From: Elusimicrobia bacterium GWB2_63_16
GTDB lineage: Bacteria > Elusimicrobiota > Elusimicrobia > Elusimicrobiales > UBA9959
DNA: 56,440 bases
Direction of reading: 5' to 3'
Assembly: GCA_001799715.1 (NCBI GenBank)
Contig: MGTZ01000061.1
Location: 1 to 56,440 of the forward strand
Shown: positions 10,550 through 55,874 of the stretch, one piece after another
How positions within the stretch are numbered: the stretch's first letter is position 1
How the letters are laid out: every line of letters starts with the position of its first letter
Program-made: the position numbers and the translations under genes
Notes under the pieces: generated by a model
The model's input: only the letters and a program-made list of their open reading frames with translations
Told to the model about the DNA's origin: nothing
The model's database searches: none

Positions 10550-13123
10550 ATGCCGACCAAGCGCGTTTTCATCATAGACGCACACGCCTTCCTGCACAGG
10601 AGCTACCACGCCCTGCCAAAGTTCTCCACCTCGAAAGGGGAGGAGGTGGGAGCGCTGTACGGCTTCACGCGCGTGCTGCTGAAGATCCTGCGCGAGCGCA
10701 AGCCGGAGTACGTGGCCGTCTGCTTCGACTCCAAGGGCGGCACTTTCCGCGACGAGATGTTCGCCGAGTACAAGGCCAACCGCAAGGAGACCGAGCCGGG
10801 GCTGGTGGGCCAGCTCAACACGGCGCGCGACCTGGTATCGGCGCTGGGCCTCAAGGGCGTTTACCTGAAAGGCTATGAGGCCGACGACATCATCGCCACG
10901 CTGGCGCGCCGCGCCGCGGCGGCCGGCCTGGAGGCCGTGATAGTTTCCGGCGACAAGGACGCGGCCCAGCTGGTGGGGGAAGGAGTGAAGATGTGGGACG
11001 GCAGCGCCCCCGACTTTTCCGGCCCCGAGGCCGTTGAGAAGAAGTACGGCTTGCCGCCCTCGCTGCTGCCCGACTATTTCGCGCTGACCGGCGACTCCTC
11101 CGACAACGTGCCCGGCGTGGCCGGCGTCGGACCCAAGAGCGCGGTAAAACTTATACAGACCTACGGCCCGCTGGAGAAGATCCTGGCCGCGGCCATGGAC
11201 CCGGCCCTGGCGGCCGCCGACAAGGCCCTGGCCAAGGTGGCCAAAGACATGGAGAACGCCAGGCTGTCCCGCCGCCTGGTCTCGCTGGCCGCCGACGCGC
11301 CGGTGGAGGAGGGGCTGGACATCTTCAAGCCCGCCGCTCCCGGGGGGCCGGAGCTGGAAGAGATGGCCCGCCGCCTGGAATTCAAAGAGCTGCTGGCGCT
11401 GGCCGGCGGCGCCCCGGCGGAGCACAAGGCCGCCCCGCTGCCGCCCCTGCGCACTCCCGAAGAGGCGCTGGCCGACTTGAAAGGGGAAGCCGCTTTCGCC
11501 GCTTTCGCCGACGGCCTGGCCATAGGCAACAAGCACGGCGTCTGCGTGCTGCGCCCCGGCTTCTTCGGCCCCGAACAGGCCGCCCTGGCGGTGAAGCTGC
11601 TGGAAGACAAGGCCCTCCCCAAAGTCACTTTCGGCCTGAAGGCCGCGCTGCGCCTGCTGGACCTGCCGGCCGGCTTCGTCCCCGTGAATTATTACGACGC
11701 CGACACGGCCGCCGCGCTGCTGACGGCCGGTACGCGCCGCACCGAACTGCCGCAGCAGCTCTTCGAGCGCCTGGGCCTGCCGCTGCACCTGCCCGGCTCC
11801 GACGAGGAGAAGGCGCAGGCCTGCGCCGGGCTGCCGGCGCTGTGGCACCTTTTGAAGGCGGAGCTGGAGCAGGCCGGGATGCTGGGTGTCTACGAGGAGC
11901 TGGAGCTGCCGCTGCTGCCCGTAGTCTACTCCATGGAGCGCACCGGCGCCGCCGCCGACACCGCGCTGCTGGGCGAGCTGTCCACCCGCTTCGAGCGGCA
12001 GATGGCCGAACTGCAGGCCGAGTCGCAGCGGCTCACCGGGATGGAAGTGAACCTGAATTCCCCCAAGCAGGTGGCCGCGCTGCTCTACGAGAAGCTCAAC
12101 CTCGGCCTGGGCGAGGCGCAGAAGAAGCAGTTCAAGACCAAGGACGGCTATACCACCGGCGAGGAGGCCCTGCAGTACCTCAAGGCCGCGCATCCCGTGG
12201 TGCCGCTGCTGATGGAGTTCCGCGAGGTCTCCAAGCTCAAGTCCTCTTTCGTGGACAATTTGCTGGCCGCCGCCGGCCCCGACGGGCGGCTGCACACCAC
12301 TTTCGACCAGTTGGGCGCGGCCACCGGCCGCTTCTCCAGCTCCAGGCCCAACCTGCAGAACATCCCGGTGCGCTCCGAGGCCGGCCTGCTGGTGCGCAAA
12401 TGTTTCGTGGCGCGAGAGGGCTTCGAACTGCTGAGCGCCGACTATTCGCAGATAGACCTGCGCGTGCTGGCGCACCTCTCCGGAGACCGCAACCTGACCG
12501 AGGCCTTCCGCAGCGGCGAGGATATACACCAGCGCACCGCCTCCGAGATCTTCCACTGCGCGCCGCAGCTGGTGACGCCCGAGATGCGCCGCGCGGCCAA
12601 GGCCATAAATTTCGGCATAGTGTACGGCAAGACGGCGCAGGGCCTGAGCCAGGACCTGGGCATCAGCCGCGCCGAGGCGGCCGGCTACATCAGGCATTAT
12701 TTCGAGGCCTGCCCCGGCGTGAAGGAATGGAGCGAGCGCACGGTGGCCGAGGCCAAGAAGACCGGTATGGTCGCCACTTTCACCGGCCGCCGCCGCCACC
12801 TGCCCGAGCTGACGGCCACCAACCCGCACCTGCGCAGCTTCGCCGAGCGCGCCGCCGTGAATACCCCGGTGCAGGGCGGCTCGGCCGACATTATAAAGAA
12901 GGCCATGATAGGCTTGTTCCGAGAGTTCAGTGGCTCCAAGGACGTGTATATGCTGCTGCAGGTGCACGACGAACTGGTGTTCGAGGTGCGCAAGGGCCAC
13001 CTGCGTCAGGCCGCAGCCGTCATCAAGCGCGGCATGGAAGGCGCCTACGCCCTCTCGGTGCCGCTGGTAGCCGACTTCAAGTCCGGCCCCAACTGGCGCG
13101 ACATGACCAAATATGAAGTATAG
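10550..13123 (+). CDS. polA: DNA polymerase I, proofreading site apparently lost
   Basis: 857 residues. It fills gaps and removes RNA primers in replication and repair. The N-terminal 5' nuclease (about 1-290) has IIDAHAFLHRSYHALP, VSGDKDAAQLV and LTGDSSDNVPGVAGVGPK. The middle domain (about 300-480) keeps the exonuclease fold length, but the DxE metal site of proofreading enzymes is replaced (FAAFADGLAIG), as in Thermus-type enzymes. The polymerase domain has motif A DYSQIDLRVLAH (Asp631), motif B RRAAKAINFGIVYG and motif C QVHDELVF (Asp807). No Shine-Dalgarno sequence is visible before the ATG, which is preceded by CTATAAAAA. Confidence 0.96.
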   Translation: MPTKRVFIIDAHAFLHRSYHALPKFSTSKGEEVGALYGFTRVLLKILRERKPEYVAVCFDSKGGTFRDEMFAEYKANRKETEPGLVGQLNTARDLVSALGLKGVYLKGYEADDIIATLARRAAAAGLEAVIVSGDKDAAQLVGEGVKMWDGSAPDFSGPEAVEKKYGLPPSLLPDYFALTGDSSDNVPGVAGVGPKSAVKLIQTYGPLEKILAAAMDPALAAADKALAKVAKDMENARLSRRLVSLAADAPVEEGLDIFKPAAPGGPELEEMARRLEFKELLALAGGAPAEHKAAPLPPLRTPEEALADLKGEAAFAAFADGLAIGNKHGVCVLRPGFFGPEQAALAVKLLEDKALPKVTFGLKAALRLLDLPAGFVPVNYYDADTAAALLTAGTRRTELPQQLFERLGLPLHLPGSDEEKAQACAGLPALWHLLKAELEQAGMLGVYEELELPLLPVVYSMERTGAAADTALLGELSTRFERQMAELQAESQRLTGMEVNLNSPKQVAALLYEKLNLGLGEAQKKQFKTKDGYTTGEEALQYLKAAHPVVPLLMEFREVSKLKSSFVDNLLAAAGPDGRLHTTFDQLGAATGRFSSSRPNLQNIPVRSEAGLLVRKCFVAREGFELLSADYSQIDLRVLAHLSGDRNLTEAFRSGEDIHQRTASEIFHCAPQLVTPEMRRAAKAINFGIVYGKTAQGLSQDLGISRAEAAGYIRHYFEACPGVKEWSERTVAEAKKTGMVATFTGRRRHLPELTATNPHLRSFAERAAVNTPVQGGSADIIKKAMIGLFREFSGSKDVYMLLQVHDELVFEVRKGHLRQAAAVIKRGMEGAYALSVPLVADFKSGPNWRDMTKYEV

Positions 13124-13145
13124 CGGGACGAAATCGTGGGTTCCG

Positions 13146-13276
13146 CCGGGACGGACGGCTCGGGTTAGCAAAACCCTGTCGGAGGCCGAGGCTTGCGTAA
13201 GCGCCGAGGCCGAGACGGGGAGTGGCGAGCACGGTGTGCGAGACCACGTTTTTGCGTTCCGGGCCGTCCGGCACGG
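13146..13276 (+). repeat. Structured intergenic repeat element, copy 1
   Basis: Fills the gap between polA and the rhomboid gene. The outer arms 13146-13163 and 13259-13276 are an imperfect 18-bp inverted repeat (15 of 18). Inside, in order: GGGTTAGCAAAACCC (a small hairpin), GAGGCTTGCGTAAGCGCCGAG (13188-13208) and the hairpin GCACGGTGTGC around 13230-13238. Then TTTTGCG is followed by the right arm. The same order and spacing recur at 25134-25263 and, inverted and expanded, at 55673-55874. No protein-coding signal was seen. Confidence 0.75.
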
Positions 13277-13288
13277 CAGGAGCGTGCG

Positions 13289-23042: not shown

Positions 23043-25121
23043 GTGAAAAACCTCCTGGCCGCCCTCCTGCTCGCCGCCGCCGCTCCCGCGGCGGCCTACG
23101 AGCTGCCGTCCTCGACCGGCGCGCACCGCGTGCGCTTCGAGGCGGACCAGGCCGGCTTCAACGAATATACCCGCGAGATACAACTGCAGGGCAACGTGCG
23201 CCTGGAGGAACTGTCCGAGGAGGGCAAGCAGCTCAAGCTGGTGCGCGCGCATGAGCTGAACGTCAGCATGTCGAGCCGCACCGTCTCGGCGCCCTCCGAC
23301 TTCGTGATAGACGACGACACCGGCACCGCCTACGGCAAGAGCGGCTTCTTCAGCTACGGCGAAAATCACGGCTACATCAACGACGGCCGCTTCCAGCACG
23401 GCAACTTCATCTTCCGCGGCCGCTCCATCAACTTCGACAAGGACGGCTACGTCTACAAGCGGGCCAGCCTGACCAGCTGCGACGAGGACCCGCCGCATTA
23501 CCGCATCAGGGCCTCGCGCATCCACCTCGCCCCCGAGCGCTATTTCGTGGCCTACAACACCGTCTTCTTCCTGGGGCGCGTGCCTATCTTCTACCTGCCG
23601 GTGCTCTACAAGCCGATGGGCCGCGGCACGCCTTTCGTCACCAGCCTGTTCCCCGGTTACGACGAGCGCAACGGCGCCTTCCTGAAGTCCAACTACATGT
23701 ACCGGGTCAACCCGCACATGCGGGTGAAGGCCTACCTGGACTATTTCTCCAAGCGCGGCCTGGGCACCGGCGGCGAGTTCGACTACCGGCAGGAGGGGAA
23801 GAACATCACCAACCTCTCGGCCTACCGCATCCGCGAGCATGGTCAGGCTACGGACCGCTGGGGCATGAACGGCGGTTTCTGGCACGCCTTCAACCGGTTC
23901 AGCGAGTCCGACCCGGCGCAGTATTACGGCCAGTCCTTCTTCCGGCTGCTCTCGGACCCGTCGTTCAACAACGATTTCTTCCGCACCAACCCTTTCGCCG
24001 TCAGCCCGGACAAGCAGGCGAGCCTCGCCTTCACGCGCAAGACCAATTACACGGTGACGCGCGTGAGCGCCTACGGCCGCGACGAGCGCTCCGCGGCCGA
24101 CCAGGAGAAGTTCGTGAAAGCCTACGAGTCCGCGCCGCGCCTGGACTTCAACACGGTGCCCTTCGCGATCCCAAAGGTGCCGGTGCTCAACACCTTCTCC
24201 GGCTATTTCGAGAACGTCCGGGAATACGGCACAGGTTACTACCAGAAGAAGGGCCGCGCCAACTGGGGCGTGTCCAAGACGGTGCCGCTGAGCCGCCGCG
24301 TGATACTTTCGCCCTCGGCCTTCTTCGACCAGTCCGTGGCGCTGTCCACGGCGCCGGCCGCCGGGGATATCTGGACCGGGCGCTACGGCGGCGCGGTGAA
24401 CCTGCGCTACGACCGCCTGTGGGGTTCCCTGGACCTGCGCTACGCCTCCACCCGGCGCATGCGGGAGAATGACTTCTCCGTGGACCTGAGCTCGACCGAC
24501 AAGGGACAGGAACTTGAGTCTTTCTACGCCGACCTGTTCATCATGCCGCGCCATAACGTTTATTTCCGGGCGCGCACCTCCTACGACCTGCGCAATTACT
24601 ACACCGCCTCTTTCGCGCGGCGCCTGTCCCCGCTGATCGCCGAGGCCTATTATTCGCCGCGCCCCACGCTGGACCTCTACGCGCAGAATTCCTACAGCTT
24701 CGCCACCGGCAACCAGGGTTTCGTCGGGCAGGCCACGGTGGGCGGGACCGGGTCCTATTTCAGCGCCGGCGTGGCCAATTACAGCACCGACCCCGAGGCC
24801 TGGGTGATCAGCAACACGCTGGGCTTCAAGCCGTGGCGGACCTCCAAGTGGCGGGCCGAGGCCGTGCTGCGCTACCGGTTGGTGCCCGACGGTTTCGGCA
24901 AGCTAGAGAGTTTCAGGTTCTTCGAGAAGGCCGTGACGCTGTTCCGCGACTTCCACGACTTCCGCACCAGCTGGGACTTCAGGGTGCGCTCCGGCGGCGT
25001 GAAGGAGTTCTTCTTCTTCGTGAACCTGAAGATGAACGACCCCGACCGCTACGACACCCTTGAGCAGAAGTCGCGCGCCTACTGGCACCCCTGGCGCCGC
25101 AGCGACGCCGTCAGGGATTAA
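23043..25121 (+). CDS. lptD: LPS-assembly outer-membrane protein LptD
   Basis: 692 residues from a GTG start; KNLLAALLLAAAAPAAA is the signal peptide. The OstA/LptA-like beta-jellyroll covers about residues 20-170 (IQLQGNVRLEELS, FVIDDDTGTAYGKSGFF). The LptD-type segment SLTSCDEDPPHYRIRASRIH and FFLGRVPIFYLPVLYKP lead into the beta-barrel (about 220-690). With LptE it inserts lipopolysaccharide into the outer leaflet. It shows the cell is diderm and probably makes LPS. It is the last gene of the prfA-lptD run and lies 13 bases after the ROK gene. The usual disulfide cysteines of the E. coli protein are not conserved as pairs here. Confidence 0.9.
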   Translation: MKNLLAALLLAAAAPAAAYELPSSTGAHRVRFEADQAGFNEYTREIQLQGNVRLEELSEEGKQLKLVRAHELNVSMSSRTVSAPSDFVIDDDTGTAYGKSGFFSYGENHGYINDGRFQHGNFIFRGRSINFDKDGYVYKRASLTSCDEDPPHYRIRASRIHLAPERYFVAYNTVFFLGRVPIFYLPVLYKPMGRGTPFVTSLFPGYDERNGAFLKSNYMYRVNPHMRVKAYLDYFSKRGLGTGGEFDYRQEGKNITNLSAYRIREHGQATDRWGMNGGFWHAFNRFSESDPAQYYGQSFFRLLSDPSFNNDFFRTNPFAVSPDKQASLAFTRKTNYTVTRVSAYGRDERSAADQEKFVKAYESAPRLDFNTVPFAIPKVPVLNTFSGYFENVREYGTGYYQKKGRANWGVSKTVPLSRRVILSPSAFFDQSVALSTAPAAGDIWTGRYGGAVNLRYDRLWGSLDLRYASTRRMRENDFSVDLSSTDKGQELESFYADLFIMPRHNVYFRARTSYDLRNYYTASFARRLSPLIAEAYYSPRPTLDLYAQNSYSFATGNQGFVGQATVGGTGSYFSAGVANYSTDPEAWVISNTLGFKPWRTSKWRAEAVLRYRLVPDGFGKLESFRFFEKAVTLFRDFHDFRTSWDFRVRSGGVKEFFFFVNLKMNDPDRYDTLEQKSRAYWHPWRRSDAVRD

Positions 25122-25133
25122 TATTTTCTTTTC

Positions 25134-25263
25134 GGGGCTGACGAGGGGATGCCCTCGCAGGGGCCTCACGAAGGCGAGGCTTGCGCAGCGCCGAGCCTGA
25201 GTGAAAGAGCGAGGCCACGGTGTGGCCGAGCGTACCCGGAGAGGGCGTCCCCTTGGCAGCCCC
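25134..25263 (+). repeat. Structured intergenic repeat element, copy 2
   Basis: Occupies most of the lptD-epimerase gap. The outer arms pair: GGGGCTG (25134-25140) with CAGCCCC (25257-25263), and GGGGATGCCCTC (25145-25156) with GAGGGCGTCCCC (25241-25252, one wobble). Inside are GAGGCTTGCGCAGCGCCGAG (25176-25195) and the hairpin GGCCACGGTGTGGCC (centre 25216-25224). Spacing of these parts nearly equals copy 1 (13146-13276; 131 bp against 130 bp here). The remaining 25264-25370 holds no obvious gene, only the short leader of the epimerase. Confidence 0.75.
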
Positions 25264-25370
25264 CTCCGAGGGCATACCCCAGGCGGCCTCGCAGAAGTTG
25301 GCCCTCTCCGTGCGGGCCGCTTCAACGCTGAATTTGAAAATGATAAACTTTAGGGATAGGGAAGGATAAT

Positions 25371-26324
25371 ATGACAAAACCGCTTTGGCTCGTTACCGGC
25401 GGGGCCGGGTTCATAGGCTCCAACATAGTGGAAGAACTGCTGCGGCGCGGCTGCCGCGTGCGCGTGTTCGACAATTTCTCCACCGGCAAGGAAGAGAACC
25501 TAGCCCCGTTCAAGGGCAAGTTCGAGCTGGTGCGCGGCGACCTGCGCGAGCCGGCCGACCTGAAGAAGGCCATGCGTGGCGTGACCTACGTGCTGCACCA
25601 GGCCGCCTTCCGCTCCGTGCCCAAGTCCGTGGACAACCCGCGCGCCGCCAACGACAATAACGCCACCGGCACCCTGAACGCCCTGATGGCAGCCAAAGAG
25701 GCCGGCGTGAAGCGCTTCGTCTACGCCGCTACCAGCTCCGCCTACGGCGAGTGCAAGGTATTCCCGCAGACGGAAAGCCTGCCCACGATGCCGGTTTCGC
25801 CCTACGCCGTCAGCAAGCTGGCCGGCGAGAATTACTGCCGCGTCTACGCCCGGACCTTCGGTCTGGAGACCGTGGCGCTGCGCTACTTCAACGTGTTCGG
25901 TCCCCGCCAGAACCCGGAGTCGATGTATTCCGCCGTGATCCCGCGCTTCATGGAGCTGCTGGTGCAGGGCAAGCCGCTGGAGATCCACTGGGACGGCAAA
26001 CAGTCCCGCGACTTCACCTACGTCGCCAACGTCGTGGACGGCAATATCCGCGCCGCCCTGGCTCCGTCCAAAGTCTCCGGCCTCACGATCAACGTGGCCA
26101 CCGGCACCAATATCTCGCTGCTCGACATAGCCCGCGAGCTGGAGAAGATCACCGGCCGGAAGACGGCAAAGCTCTTCTCGCCCAAGCGCAAGGGCGACAT
26201 CCGCAAGACCTATTCCGACATCACCCTGGCCCGCCGCCTGCTCGGCTACAAGCCGCTGGTGAAGTTCCCCGAGGGGCTGCGGCTGACCTGGGATTACTTC
26301 TCGGCCAAATGGGGGAAGAAATGA
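25371..26324 (+). CDS. NAD-dependent sugar epimerase/dehydratase (UDP-GlcNAc/UDP-Glc 4-epimerase type)
   Basis: 317 residues, an extended short-chain dehydrogenase fold. The NAD-binding GGAGFIG is at 10-16. The catalytic Tyr145-x3-Lys149 lies in SPYAVSKLAGENYC, with the Ser in AATSSAYGE. RYFNVFGPRQNPESMYSAVI and GKQSRDFTYVANVV are typical of the WbpP/GalE branch, which makes UDP-GalNAc or related sugars for surface polysaccharides. Exact substrate uncertain. GGGAAGGA is the ribosome-binding site. The stop overlaps tdk by 4 bases. Confidence 0.88.
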   Translation: MTKPLWLVTGGAGFIGSNIVEELLRRGCRVRVFDNFSTGKEENLAPFKGKFELVRGDLREPADLKKAMRGVTYVLHQAAFRSVPKSVDNPRAANDNNATGTLNALMAAKEAGVKRFVYAATSSAYGECKVFPQTESLPTMPVSPYAVSKLAGENYCRVYARTFGLETVALRYFNVFGPRQNPESMYSAVIPRFMELLVQGKPLEIHWDGKQSRDFTYVANVVDGNIRAALAPSKVSGLTINVATGTNISLLDIARELEKITGRKTAKLFSPKRKGDIRKTYSDITLARRLLGYKPLVKFPEGLRLTWDYFSAKWGKK

Positions 26325-30119: not shown

Positions 30120-30131
30120 TAAGGAGTAGTT

Positions 30132-54158: not shown

Positions 54159-55658
54159 ATGGACAAGACCGCTTACCTCAGCGTTTACGACAAGACCGGC
54201 GTAGAGGACTTCGCGCGCGGCCTGGCCGAGCTGGATTTCGAGATCTACGCCTCGGGGTCCACCTATAAGCTGCTGGCCGAGGCCGGCATAGAGGCCGAGG
54301 AGGTGAAGTACTCGCCGCCCGTGCCCTCGGCCGTGCTCAAGGCGCTCGCCGGCCGTTTCCCTGCCGTCTCCGAGAACGGCGTGGAACTGCCGCGCTTCCG
54401 CGTGGTGGTCGCCAACCTTTACCCTATAGCCGCCGTCATGGGGCAGCCGGAGTTCGCCATAGAGGAACTGCCCGGCTATCTGGACCAGGCCAACTCCGCC
54501 GTGCTGCGCGCGGCGGCGCGGGATTTCGTCAGCGTCATCTCCGTCTGCTCGGCGGCCGATTACGCCCCCGTGCTCGCCGCGCTCAAGGAAGCCGGCGGCC
54601 TGGAGCCGGGCGTGCAGAAGCAGCTGGCCGCCAGGGCCTGGCAGTACCTGGCCGCCTACGACGCCACCGTGGCACAGTACCTCTCCGAGACCGGCAATTT
54701 ACTGGGCGACGAGGTGGTGATGAGCCTGCGCAAGGTGGCCGACCTGGACTACGGCGAGAACCGCCACCAGAACGCGGCCTTCTACGCCCTCAGCGGCGCG
54801 CGCCCCCGCGGCCTCAACGCCGCCCGGCTGCTGTCAGGCGGCGACTTTAATTTCAATCATTACCTGGACCTCGACACCGCCTTCGAGCTGGCGCAGGAAT
54901 TCGAGGAACCGGTCTGCGTCATAGTTAAGCACGACCGGCCGGCCGCGGTCTGCTGCGGCAGCACCCAGGCCGAGAGCCTGCGGGGCGCGTTGCGCAGCGA
55001 GCCGGCCGGTTCGGTGGGCGGCACGGCCGCTTTTAACCGCCAGGTGGAGCCGGAGACGGCCGCGGCGCTGGCGGAGACTTTCATAGAGAGCGTGGTGGCC
55101 CCGGACTACGCGCCGGAGGCGCTCAAGGCGCTGAAGTCCAAGGCCGGCCTGCGCGTGGTGGCGCTGCCGGCGCCGGTGCTTTCGCCCTACGAGGTGAACC
55201 TGCGCTCGGTGGCGGGCGGGGTGCTGATAGAGTCCAGGGACAACCGGCTTTTCTCGGCCGAGCCCGCCTGCGCTACGAAGCGCAAGCCCACTGAAGCCGA
55301 GGCGGCCGCGCTGCGGCTGGCCTGGAAGACGGTGAAATACGCTAAGACCTACGCCGTGGCGCTGGCCGAAGGGCGCTGCGTGACGGCGATCAGCGCCTCC
55401 GAGAGCTCTACCTACGACGCGGTGCGCAACGCCTTGTGGAAAATGCGCGAGAAGCGCTCCATCCTGCCGGGCGCCGGCCCGCTGGTGATGGCGGCCGACG
55501 CCGCGCTGCCGCTGAAGACGCTGCAGGCCGCCCTGGCCGGCGGCGTGACGGCCGTGATACAGCCGGGGGGCTGGCAGGACGACGAGGACTGCGCCCGGTT
55601 CTGCGACGAAAGGAATGTCGCCATGCTGTTCGCCGGTATCCGCCATTTCCGGCACTAG
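54159..55658 (+). CDS. purH: Strongly diverged PurH-like protein (IMP cyclohydrolase/AICAR transformylase fold)
   Basis: 499 residues, aligned with PurH from start (AYLSVYDKTGVEDFARGLAE) to end (GVTAVIQPGGWQDDEDC, IRHFRH). The cyclohydrolase half lacks the usual GRVKTLHPxIHGG loop, and the GGPxMxRxAAKN region is replaced (LDQANSAVLRAAARD). In the transformylase half YGENRHQ, VKHDRPA (with the catalytic Lys-His) and LRSVAGG remain, but SAFGG reads GSVGG and the IGAGQxSR region reads ISASESS. It may be a divergent purine enzyme that keeps only part of the activity, or a repurposed paralogue. There is no ribosome-binding site of note. Confidence 0.75.
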   Translation: MDKTAYLSVYDKTGVEDFARGLAELDFEIYASGSTYKLLAEAGIEAEEVKYSPPVPSAVLKALAGRFPAVSENGVELPRFRVVVANLYPIAAVMGQPEFAIEELPGYLDQANSAVLRAAARDFVSVISVCSAADYAPVLAALKEAGGLEPGVQKQLAARAWQYLAAYDATVAQYLSETGNLLGDEVVMSLRKVADLDYGENRHQNAAFYALSGARPRGLNAARLLSGGDFNFNHYLDLDTAFELAQEFEEPVCVIVKHDRPAAVCCGSTQAESLRGALRSEPAGSVGGTAAFNRQVEPETAAALAETFIESVVAPDYAPEALKALKSKAGLRVVALPAPVLSPYEVNLRSVAGGVLIESRDNRLFSAEPACATKRKPTEAEAAALRLAWKTVKYAKTYAVALAEGRCVTAISASESSTYDAVRNALWKMREKRSILPGAGPLVMAADAALPLKTLQAALAGGVTAVIQPGGWQDDEDCARFCDERNVAMLFAGIRHFRH

Positions 55659-55672
55659 CTTTCAAACCATAC

Positions 55673-55874
55673 GCGGCCTGCCAGGTGGCCCGGAGCGCAA
55701 AACGCGCAAGAAAGTGTCGCTGTGCTCCACGCGCGCACACCGTGCGCTCGCTCATCAATCGGGCAAGAAAGTGTCGCTTCGCTCCACGCGGCGAATTAAC
55801 AAGCCTCGCTCGAGAAAGTGTCGCTGCGCTCCACGCATGAAGGTTTTGTTAACCCGGGCCCCCTGTCAGTCCGC
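55673..55874 (-). repeat. Structured intergenic repeat element, copy 3 (inverted, expanded)
   Basis: The gap between the purH-like gene and glnS (55659-55985) holds this element. Outer arms 55673-55693 and 55854-55874 are an imperfect 21-bp inverted repeat (18 of 21). Read on the minus strand it has CGGGTTAACAAAACC, GAGGCTTG, GCGCACGGTGTGCGC and TTTTGCGCTCCGGGCC, in the same order as copy 1. Three extra modules with the plus-strand core GAAAGTGTCGCT..GCTCCACGC lie at 55706-55733, 55763-55790 and 55811-55836. The third is flanked by TTAACAAGCCT / AGGTTTTGTTAA (55796-55806, 55841-55852). No gene was seen in the gap. Confidence 0.7.

Follow-up and report, generated by a model that had tools for sequence, protein, structure and literature searches.

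Three gaps between genes in the window, that is, the whole 56,440-nucleotide stretch of DNA analysed here, carry short motifs in the same order, and the question was what kind of element these gaps have in common. The first-pass annotation of this DNA had proposed a new family of structured intergenic elements, without deciding between non-coding RNA and palindromic DNA. The motifs that it had quoted were found in all three gaps, and the family stands, with 51 covariance model matches in the genome. As to its nature, the evidence speaks more for a palindromic element that is dispersed, folds on one strand and is probably mobile. This reading is preferred because the element is present in some species and absent from others, lies at intergenic sites, occurs in both orientations at orthologous sites and forms divergent pairs. 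A role as RNA is possible; the strand bias and the positions behind genes, both described below, would fit either.

The coordinates of the three window copies and their parts are given in Table 1. Four subfamilies, A to D, were separated by eye. From their translations, we take the flanking genes to be polA (10550-13123, before copy 1), an lptD-like gene (23043-25121, before copy 2), an epimerase-like gene (25371-26324, after copy 2) and a purH-like gene (54159-55658, adjoining copy 3).

Table 1. Positions and parts of the element copies in the window (CM, covariance model).
Feature	Position	Strand	Evidence and remarks
Copy 1, subfamily A	13144..13283	+	CM 145.6 bits, third best match in the genome; gap between polA and a + gene downstream
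Copy 1, 5' arm (helix 2)	13152..13164	+	RNA fold; partner 13258-13270
Copy 1, inner stem GCAAAA	13168..13173	+	Partner TTTTGC 13250-13255; fold and covariation in own copies
Copy 1, hairpin 1 (GA internal loops, TT bulge, apex GC-GTAA-GC)	13174..13220	+	Fold; covariation in own and foreign copies
Copy 1, hairpin 2 (tandem GA loop, apex CAC-GGT-GTG)	13222..13247	+	Fold and covariation
Copy 1, inner stem TTTTGC	13250..13255	+	Partner of 13168-13173; fold and covariation in own copies
Copy 1, 3' arm (helix 2)	13258..13270	+	RNA fold and covariation
Copy 2, subfamily B	25134..25268	+	CM 55.2 bits; between lptD-like and epimerase-like genes
Remnant-like sequence at the end of copy 2	25264..25297	.	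Matches right arm of the inverted G005 element, by eye
Copy 3, subfamily A-like	55669..55873	-	CM 26.7 bits, E 0.0011 (298,155 bases searched); after purH-like gene
Nested mini-hairpin GTGGAGCACAGCGACAC in copy 3	55714..55730	-
Nested mini-hairpin GTGGAGCGAAGCGACAC in copy 3	55771..55787	-
Nested mini-hairpin GTGGAGCGCAGCGACAC in copy 3	55818..55834	-

Judging from its match, the remnant-like sequence is likely a leftover of an earlier occupant of the gap of copy 2. Copy 3 contains three nested mini-hairpins of the form GTGGAGC..GCGACAC, and probably because of them it is absent from the whole-genome model matches at E<=0.01 and was seen only in the smaller search. A smaller module consists of GTGGAGCGNAGCGACAC and, after it, CGCAGTG or TTTCT, and has a GCGNAGC mini-hairpin and tandem G·A; it sits inside elements at several places (window 55714-55834; L029-L035, L222, L224-L226) and is present in one other repeat region too.

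A DNA search with copy 1 gave 45 matches in the 2.87 Mb genome. As the first-pass annotation had advised, a covariance model was built and run against the genome and its relatives. The model (R1, 139 positions) was made from 19 of 41 copies of this genome (own copies), omitting 12 with nested inserts and 10 of subfamilies B/C. The annotation had allowed that further copies might be lacking; R1 gave 51 matches in the own genome at E<=0.01, all but one of which reached E<=1.8e-4. Of the 59 genomes sampled in the family, 48 had matches (1 to at least 55 each) and the other 11 had none. The genus of the window was represented by 32 genomes, all of which matched (8 to at least 55 copies each), and 16 of the 27 family genomes outside the genus did so. 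Stricter filters were used in this census than in the own-genome search, and copy counts of 55 are lower bounds. In a sample of 198 genomes of the phylum, 14 matched; among those listed were 13 of 18 family members, membership being read from the listing order, and a single genome outside the family with one weak match (2.9e-6).

Among at least 112 stretches fitting the search pattern, the named records that bear the element are Elusimicrobia or Elusimicrobiales MAGs, and a few labelled just ‘bacterium’; Elusimicrobiales STB_10 (L062) and Elusimicrobiota E14 (L120) are included, and their model matches coincide in position and score with those of the genus members G018 and G234, respectively. 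Eleven records with other labels fit the pattern, and of these only the end of a Candidatus Magasanikbacteria contig scored with the model (partial element, L060 4252-4331, 49.7 bits); this contig may be a binning error. Carriage by viruses was rejected, as the one pattern match in viral contigs reached a model E of 0.34 only. The element is also not a known Rfam family: Rfam 15 gave no match at gathering score in the window, and permissive scans gave only H19_2 beside copy 1 (8.7 bits, E 8.3) and anti-hemB in one of eight loci (20.9 bits, E 0.85), both far below gathering score. In the open-access literature on Elusimicrobia repeats and palindromes and on elements with compensatory changes, none of the titles and abstracts among the matches listed deals with this family; most subscription literature lies outside that scope. 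The word ‘Elusimicrobi’ is absent among the matches listed for structured-RNA covariation and from the main text of the RepRanger paper (PMC12306157), and nothing relevant was found on GCGAAGC hairpins with transposition.

As RNA, copy 1 folds at -90 kcal/mol (shuffles -63.8 +/- 4.2, z -6.3) and copy 2 at -87.1 kcal/mol (shuffles -62.8 +/- 4.3, z -5.7). The outermost part of the fold is a long arm that differs from copy to copy. Inside it follow an internal loop, which is TTA/GT in copy 1 and GCA/GGA in copy 2, and a short stem, which reads GCAAAA/TTTTGC in subfamily A; innermost is a three-way junction, and its two hairpins carry G·A loops. Hairpin 1 has GA internal loops, a TT bulge and the apex GC-(G/A)N(A)A-GC; hairpin 2 has a GA loop in many copies and the apex CAC-GGT-GTG. 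Two apices are near-constant, GCTTGC(G/A)N(A)AGCGC and CACGGTGTG. In hairpin 1, GCTTGC and AGCGC were without variation in 29 collected copies. The invariance of the hairpin 2 apex among those 29 is no proof, since they were gathered by the same motif; in 66 model-found copies of other genomes (foreign copies), its three apical pairs were preserved in 64 to 66.

The remainder of the fold varies in a compensatory way. Core stems read GCAC-GGT-GTGC in copy 1, GGCCAC-GGT-GTGGCC in copy 2 and GCGCAC-GGT-GTGCGC in copy 3, and the compensatory change that the annotation had noticed there was confirmed. It had also remarked that the arms differ between copies while each fits its own partner; the median arm score was 26 with the own partner vs 13 with the partners of other copies, and in 88% of 154 copies from several genomes the own-partner score lay above the 95th percentile of foreign pairings. 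Covariation was scored on a 48-pair structure taken from copy 1. In an alignment of the 19 own copies without nested inserts, 29 of the 48 pairs changed on both sides, with a score of 0.383 (0.061-0.101 with slid partners, 0.118 shuffled). The 66 foreign copies, none of them in the model, were drawn from the at least 112 pattern-matching stretches, of which 80 were searched with the model and 54 used, chosen for strong matches (E<=1e-12). They were aligned to the model, which favours its pairs. Here 40 of 48 pairs changed on both sides, the score was 0.523 (0.048-0.083 slid, 0.143 shuffled) and 93.4% of 3055 cells were paired. In helix 2, both sides changed in 11 of 13 pairs among the own copies and in 12 of 13 among the foreign ones. 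These results bear out the proposal that selection acts on structure. Chance similarity of GC-rich sequence, which had been considered, is unlikely in view of the weaker shuffled folds, the covariation and the phylum sample, and was rejected.

The fold is preferred on one strand. That carrying CACGGTGTG gave the better fold in 149 of 158 copies with RNA parameters and in 148 with DNA parameters; random windows have a mean absolute strand difference of 8.3, close in size to the mean of -9.7 kcal/mol seen here, and only the consistent sign is unusual. The complement also folds strongly (copy 1 -68, copy 2 -73.9 kcal/mol as RNA). Isolated arm mismatches were G·T in 70 and A·C in 31 cases (158 motif-found copies), and in the foreign copies, with their model-leaning alignment, G-U was counted in 125 cells and A-C in 28. 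As a double-stranded cruciform would predict neither a G·T nor a strand bias, it is a single strand, RNA or DNA, that appears to fold. The element is probably defined by the shape of one strand more than by its letters. The strand preference would equally fit a functional RNA.

Placement was examined on copies found by motif (CACGGTGTG plus the upstream GCTT motif, variants being allowed for pair counts), a search that misses copies with altered cores, including copy 3 of the window; the 51 own copies found in this way are not the same list as the 51 model matches. The motif search also supplied the copies used for the arm scores, the strand preference, the pairs of orthologous sites and the tag counts. 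Genes were predicted by a simple codon score and all gene orientations were used. None of the 51 lay inside a predicted gene. The flanking genes, in element orientation, were -- in 19 cases, +- in 13, ++ in 12 and -+ in 6, one copy having no called upstream gene. Many copies end about 20 bases or less from the stop codon of a converging gene, and of 25 single own copies in tandem gaps, 20 have the stop codon nearer to them than the start that follows. This last bias would suit a functional RNA at mRNA 3' ends, in which case the element would be kept for a transcript that is a strong 3' stabiliser or terminator, and would spread by duplication and recombination; the G-U excess and the strong fold of the complement agree with this, but in the tandem gaps antisense copies (16) outnumber sense copies (9), and a terminator could do without a three-way junction whose apices are near-constant. 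Beyond the 3' arm, several copies share a conserved tail like CCCCGACTnnGCATCTCGCGG (L207, L208, L213, L217, L058, L105, L196), and the commonest 4-mer there is GACT (26 of 152).

Close copies are arranged in one way. Among 166 motif-found copies from several genomes, pairs less than 1 kb apart were divergent in 21 cases and convergent in none, the 5' ends of the halves being together; one tandem pair at 55 bp is taken for an artefact. The halves belong to different subfamilies in 11 of the 14 pairs in which both could be classed. Element-like sequence beyond the motif-found copies adjoined 12 of them at the 5' side and 3 at the 3' side (reversed control 0), and 8 of the 12 stretches on the 5' side were longer than 100 bases and are partners missed by the motif, which suggests that many single copies may be broken pairs. 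Nested insertion into old copies was rejected as the main route, as just a few truncated remnants were found. A divergent pair might instead be two independent small RNA genes transcribed outward from a promoter in the spacer, in line with the joined 5' ends of close pairs, with the RNA-like fold and wobble bias and with spacers that look related by eye in four own pairs (L209, L210, L212, L214). Most other spacers look unrelated, a copy that ends some 20 bases from a converging stop codon leaves little room for a terminator, and copy number runs from 0 to at least 55 between relatives; we consider such genes quite improbable.

The sites themselves were compared between related genomes. The polA gap is filled in 3 of the 18 genus genomes that were compared (G000, G005, G024); in the other 15 no motif-found element was present and the flanks lie at most 68 bases apart, the end of polA overlapping the next start codon in unfilled gaps (e.g. 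L163, L164, L174; G012). Since both gene ends are kept in the filled site, a target duplication of about 13 bp can tentatively be suggested; at the other sites examined no clear duplication was seen. By eye the empty polA site has no hairpin, and an origin of the arms from a pre-existing palindrome of the target was therefore rejected. The lptD gap holds a + copy of subfamily B in G000, a - copy of B in its sister G005, a - copy of A in G022 and a + copy of A in G012, and no element in G014, G003, G024 and G009.

At another junction (L241; 14 of 16 searched relatives looked at, 13 of them with both flanks readable), 7 of 14 readable genomes are filled, namely the own genome, G016, G005, G021, G024, G018 and G003 (degenerate in the last), and G011, G008, G022, G015, G006, G014 and G012 are unfilled. 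Five filled genomes have the element in the same orientation with differing arms, and over a 12-bp arm stretch, chosen by eye because it is paired and with the two + copies (G000, G016) excluded, 60 of 60 pairs are Watson-Crick and 6 of 12 positions vary, so that compensatory change is visible also between copies at one orthologous site. These stretches are perfectly paired and have no wobble intermediates, as would be expected if template switching at replication forks kept the arms of passive palindromes identical, with no selection on the fold. That process would leave unexplained the near-constant apices and the covarying three-way junction, the bias of G·T over A·C (70 to 31) and some 50 dispersed copies, and we give it the least credence, hardly any.

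At a fourth site (L228; 16 of 16 relatives looked at, 15 readable) the element of G000 stands where G005, with flanks 93% identical, and 8 others have a GC-rich terminator-like hairpin, for example AGAACGCCCGG...CCGGGCGTTC (by eye). This replacement again fits an RNA at mRNA 3' ends. However, among 49 pairs of orthologous sites 29 have the element in the same orientation and 20 in the reverse, and sites can be empty, so that the neighbouring genes seem not to depend on it; overall such an RNA is unlikely. Cis-regulation locked to one orientation was ruled out by the mixed orientations, both to genes and at orthologous sites. Of the 49 pairs, which come from single-element gaps only and are non-independent, 38 do not exceed in likeness the 95th percentile found for random pairs of the family (0.77), with flanks 71-97% identical; rates of occupancy cannot be read from them, since the presence of an element was the reason for fetching these loci. 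That related species have different occupants at the same sites points to a mobile or fast-turning-over element. No transposition event was seen in the compared genomes. Near window position 30120, the gap holds a divergent element pair in G009 and G024 and none in the window, and in G022 the orthologous place (L194, near 1600-1750) has a different long palindrome, GGCGGGGGTATCCCTCCGCTAACCC...

We think it probable, though well short of certain, that the family is a non-autonomous, probably mobile, REPIN-like intergenic palindrome recognised as a folded single strand by a putative enzyme; its mobility and that enzyme are what we infer. Supplied in trans, the enzyme would recognise the folded strand, as TnpA-REP does REP hairpins, and move the element. 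The divergent pair may be the original mobile unit, as proposed for REPINs, with single copies as its decay products. New copies would often replace older ones where a gap tolerates hairpins, for the most part shortly after a stop codon, and once the element would have taken the place of a terminator-like hairpin.

By analogy, the nearest known kind is the REPIN. As described in passages of PMC3116915, PMC3733652 and PMC8266576, REPs are 20-40 bp long, mostly with a GTAG or CGTC tag, and are handled as single strands by TnpA-REP; REPINs are inverted REP doublets, extragenic, with compensatory changes and thought to move as folded single strands. Passages of the first two papers (PMC3116915, PMC3733652) place both in inverted pairs, in intergenic DNA and near gene ends, with compensatory changes. 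The present element likewise is a high-copy extragenic palindrome with close pairs in inverted orientation, and its hairpins, like REPs, show compensatory changes and often lie downstream of genes. Unlike REPs, each half is about 130 nt long with a three-way junction and variable arms, the arm bases bear no GTAG or CGTC tag, and there is no consistent link to Y1 (RAYT) transposases; because of tag, size and transposase link, it was filed under small mobile palindromes and not as a REPIN. Integron attC sites, too, are variable in sequence and have a conserved folded single strand that is recognised by shape, much as variable letters and a kept single-strand fold are combined here; we know of no attC counterpart for the three-way junction. 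A MITE would have fixed terminal inverted repeats and a short target duplication; here the arm sequences differ between copies, and a duplication of about 13 bp is hinted at in the polA gap only. The ERIC/IRU repeat of enterobacteria, in the parts of PMC2229807 that treat it, is about 127 bp long and non-autonomous, with structured transcripts in some cases. The present element is similar in length and would likewise be non-autonomous. ERIC copies are known to share sequence over their whole length, whereas the arms here share little and no fixed terminal inverted repeat was seen. Double-hairpin elements and repetitive hairpin-forming elements of organelle DNA are also small and dispersed in intergenic DNA, but in those of the sponge paper (PMC2800124) the stems are conserved and the loops vary, whereas here the loops are near-constant, the stems vary and the host is bacterial.

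More tentatively, and with real doubt, the family could be a new mobile class known by three-dimensional shape over sequence, a folded single strand marked by its three-way junction and tandem G·A motifs. The putative enzyme that serves it would belong neither to the RAYTs nor to the reverse transcriptases, and the occupants of its fixed intergenic sites would be exchanged and inverted at a faster pace than the genes beside them diverge. With this family, the REPIN-like kind would come to include a fold that is much larger, has a junction and lets its arms change almost freely. Its compensatory changes, which run into the hundreds (602 cells in the 66 foreign copies), would serve as a natural record; the family would also explain part of the variable intergenic DNA in this bacterial family and give a handle for finding the shape-recognising mobilisation enzyme.

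Two kinds of enzyme were searched for in the family genomes. Reverse transcriptase (RVT_1) was not found in the own genome nor in 31 of the 48 element-bearing genomes, and dependence on it was rejected on these grounds. All 17 family genomes with RVT_1 bear elements, and none of the 11 element-free genomes has RVT_1; this co-occurrence perhaps reflects lineage or genome size. Y1_Tnp was present in 49 of the 59 family genomes, 41 of 48 with elements and 8 of 11 without, and was absent from G003, G015 and G174, each with 45-46 copies. That the elements are REPINs proper, with mobilisation by the Y1 (RAYT) transposases that these genomes encode, would fit their inverted pairs, compensatory arms and intergenic places near gene ends, as well as the wide presence of Y1_Tnp. 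Against this, Y1 presence is not associated with elements, and 20 Y1 neighbourhoods from 9 genomes, a selection among the Y1 matches with three cut by contig ends and one with a masked stretch, gave no model match below E 0.25. The tags are lacking as well: GTAG stood outside the arm in 6 (5') and 2 (3') of 152 copies and CGTC in 4 (5') and 1 (3'), which is roughly what we estimate for chance. RAYT dependence was rejected on the presence data and the element-free neighbourhoods, and we regard REPINs proper as very unlikely. Nine of the 20 Y1 neighbourhoods hold long inverted repeats of another kind. Those with long perfect arms (GGGGACGCTGATTCCTAAATTCC..., GGGGTCAGGTCTTGAATCTTGACA...) lie no more than a few kb from Y1_Tnp genes (L249, L250, L252, L254, L256, L257, L258, L263), and these Y1-adjacent repeats are perhaps the true cognate REPs of the transposases.
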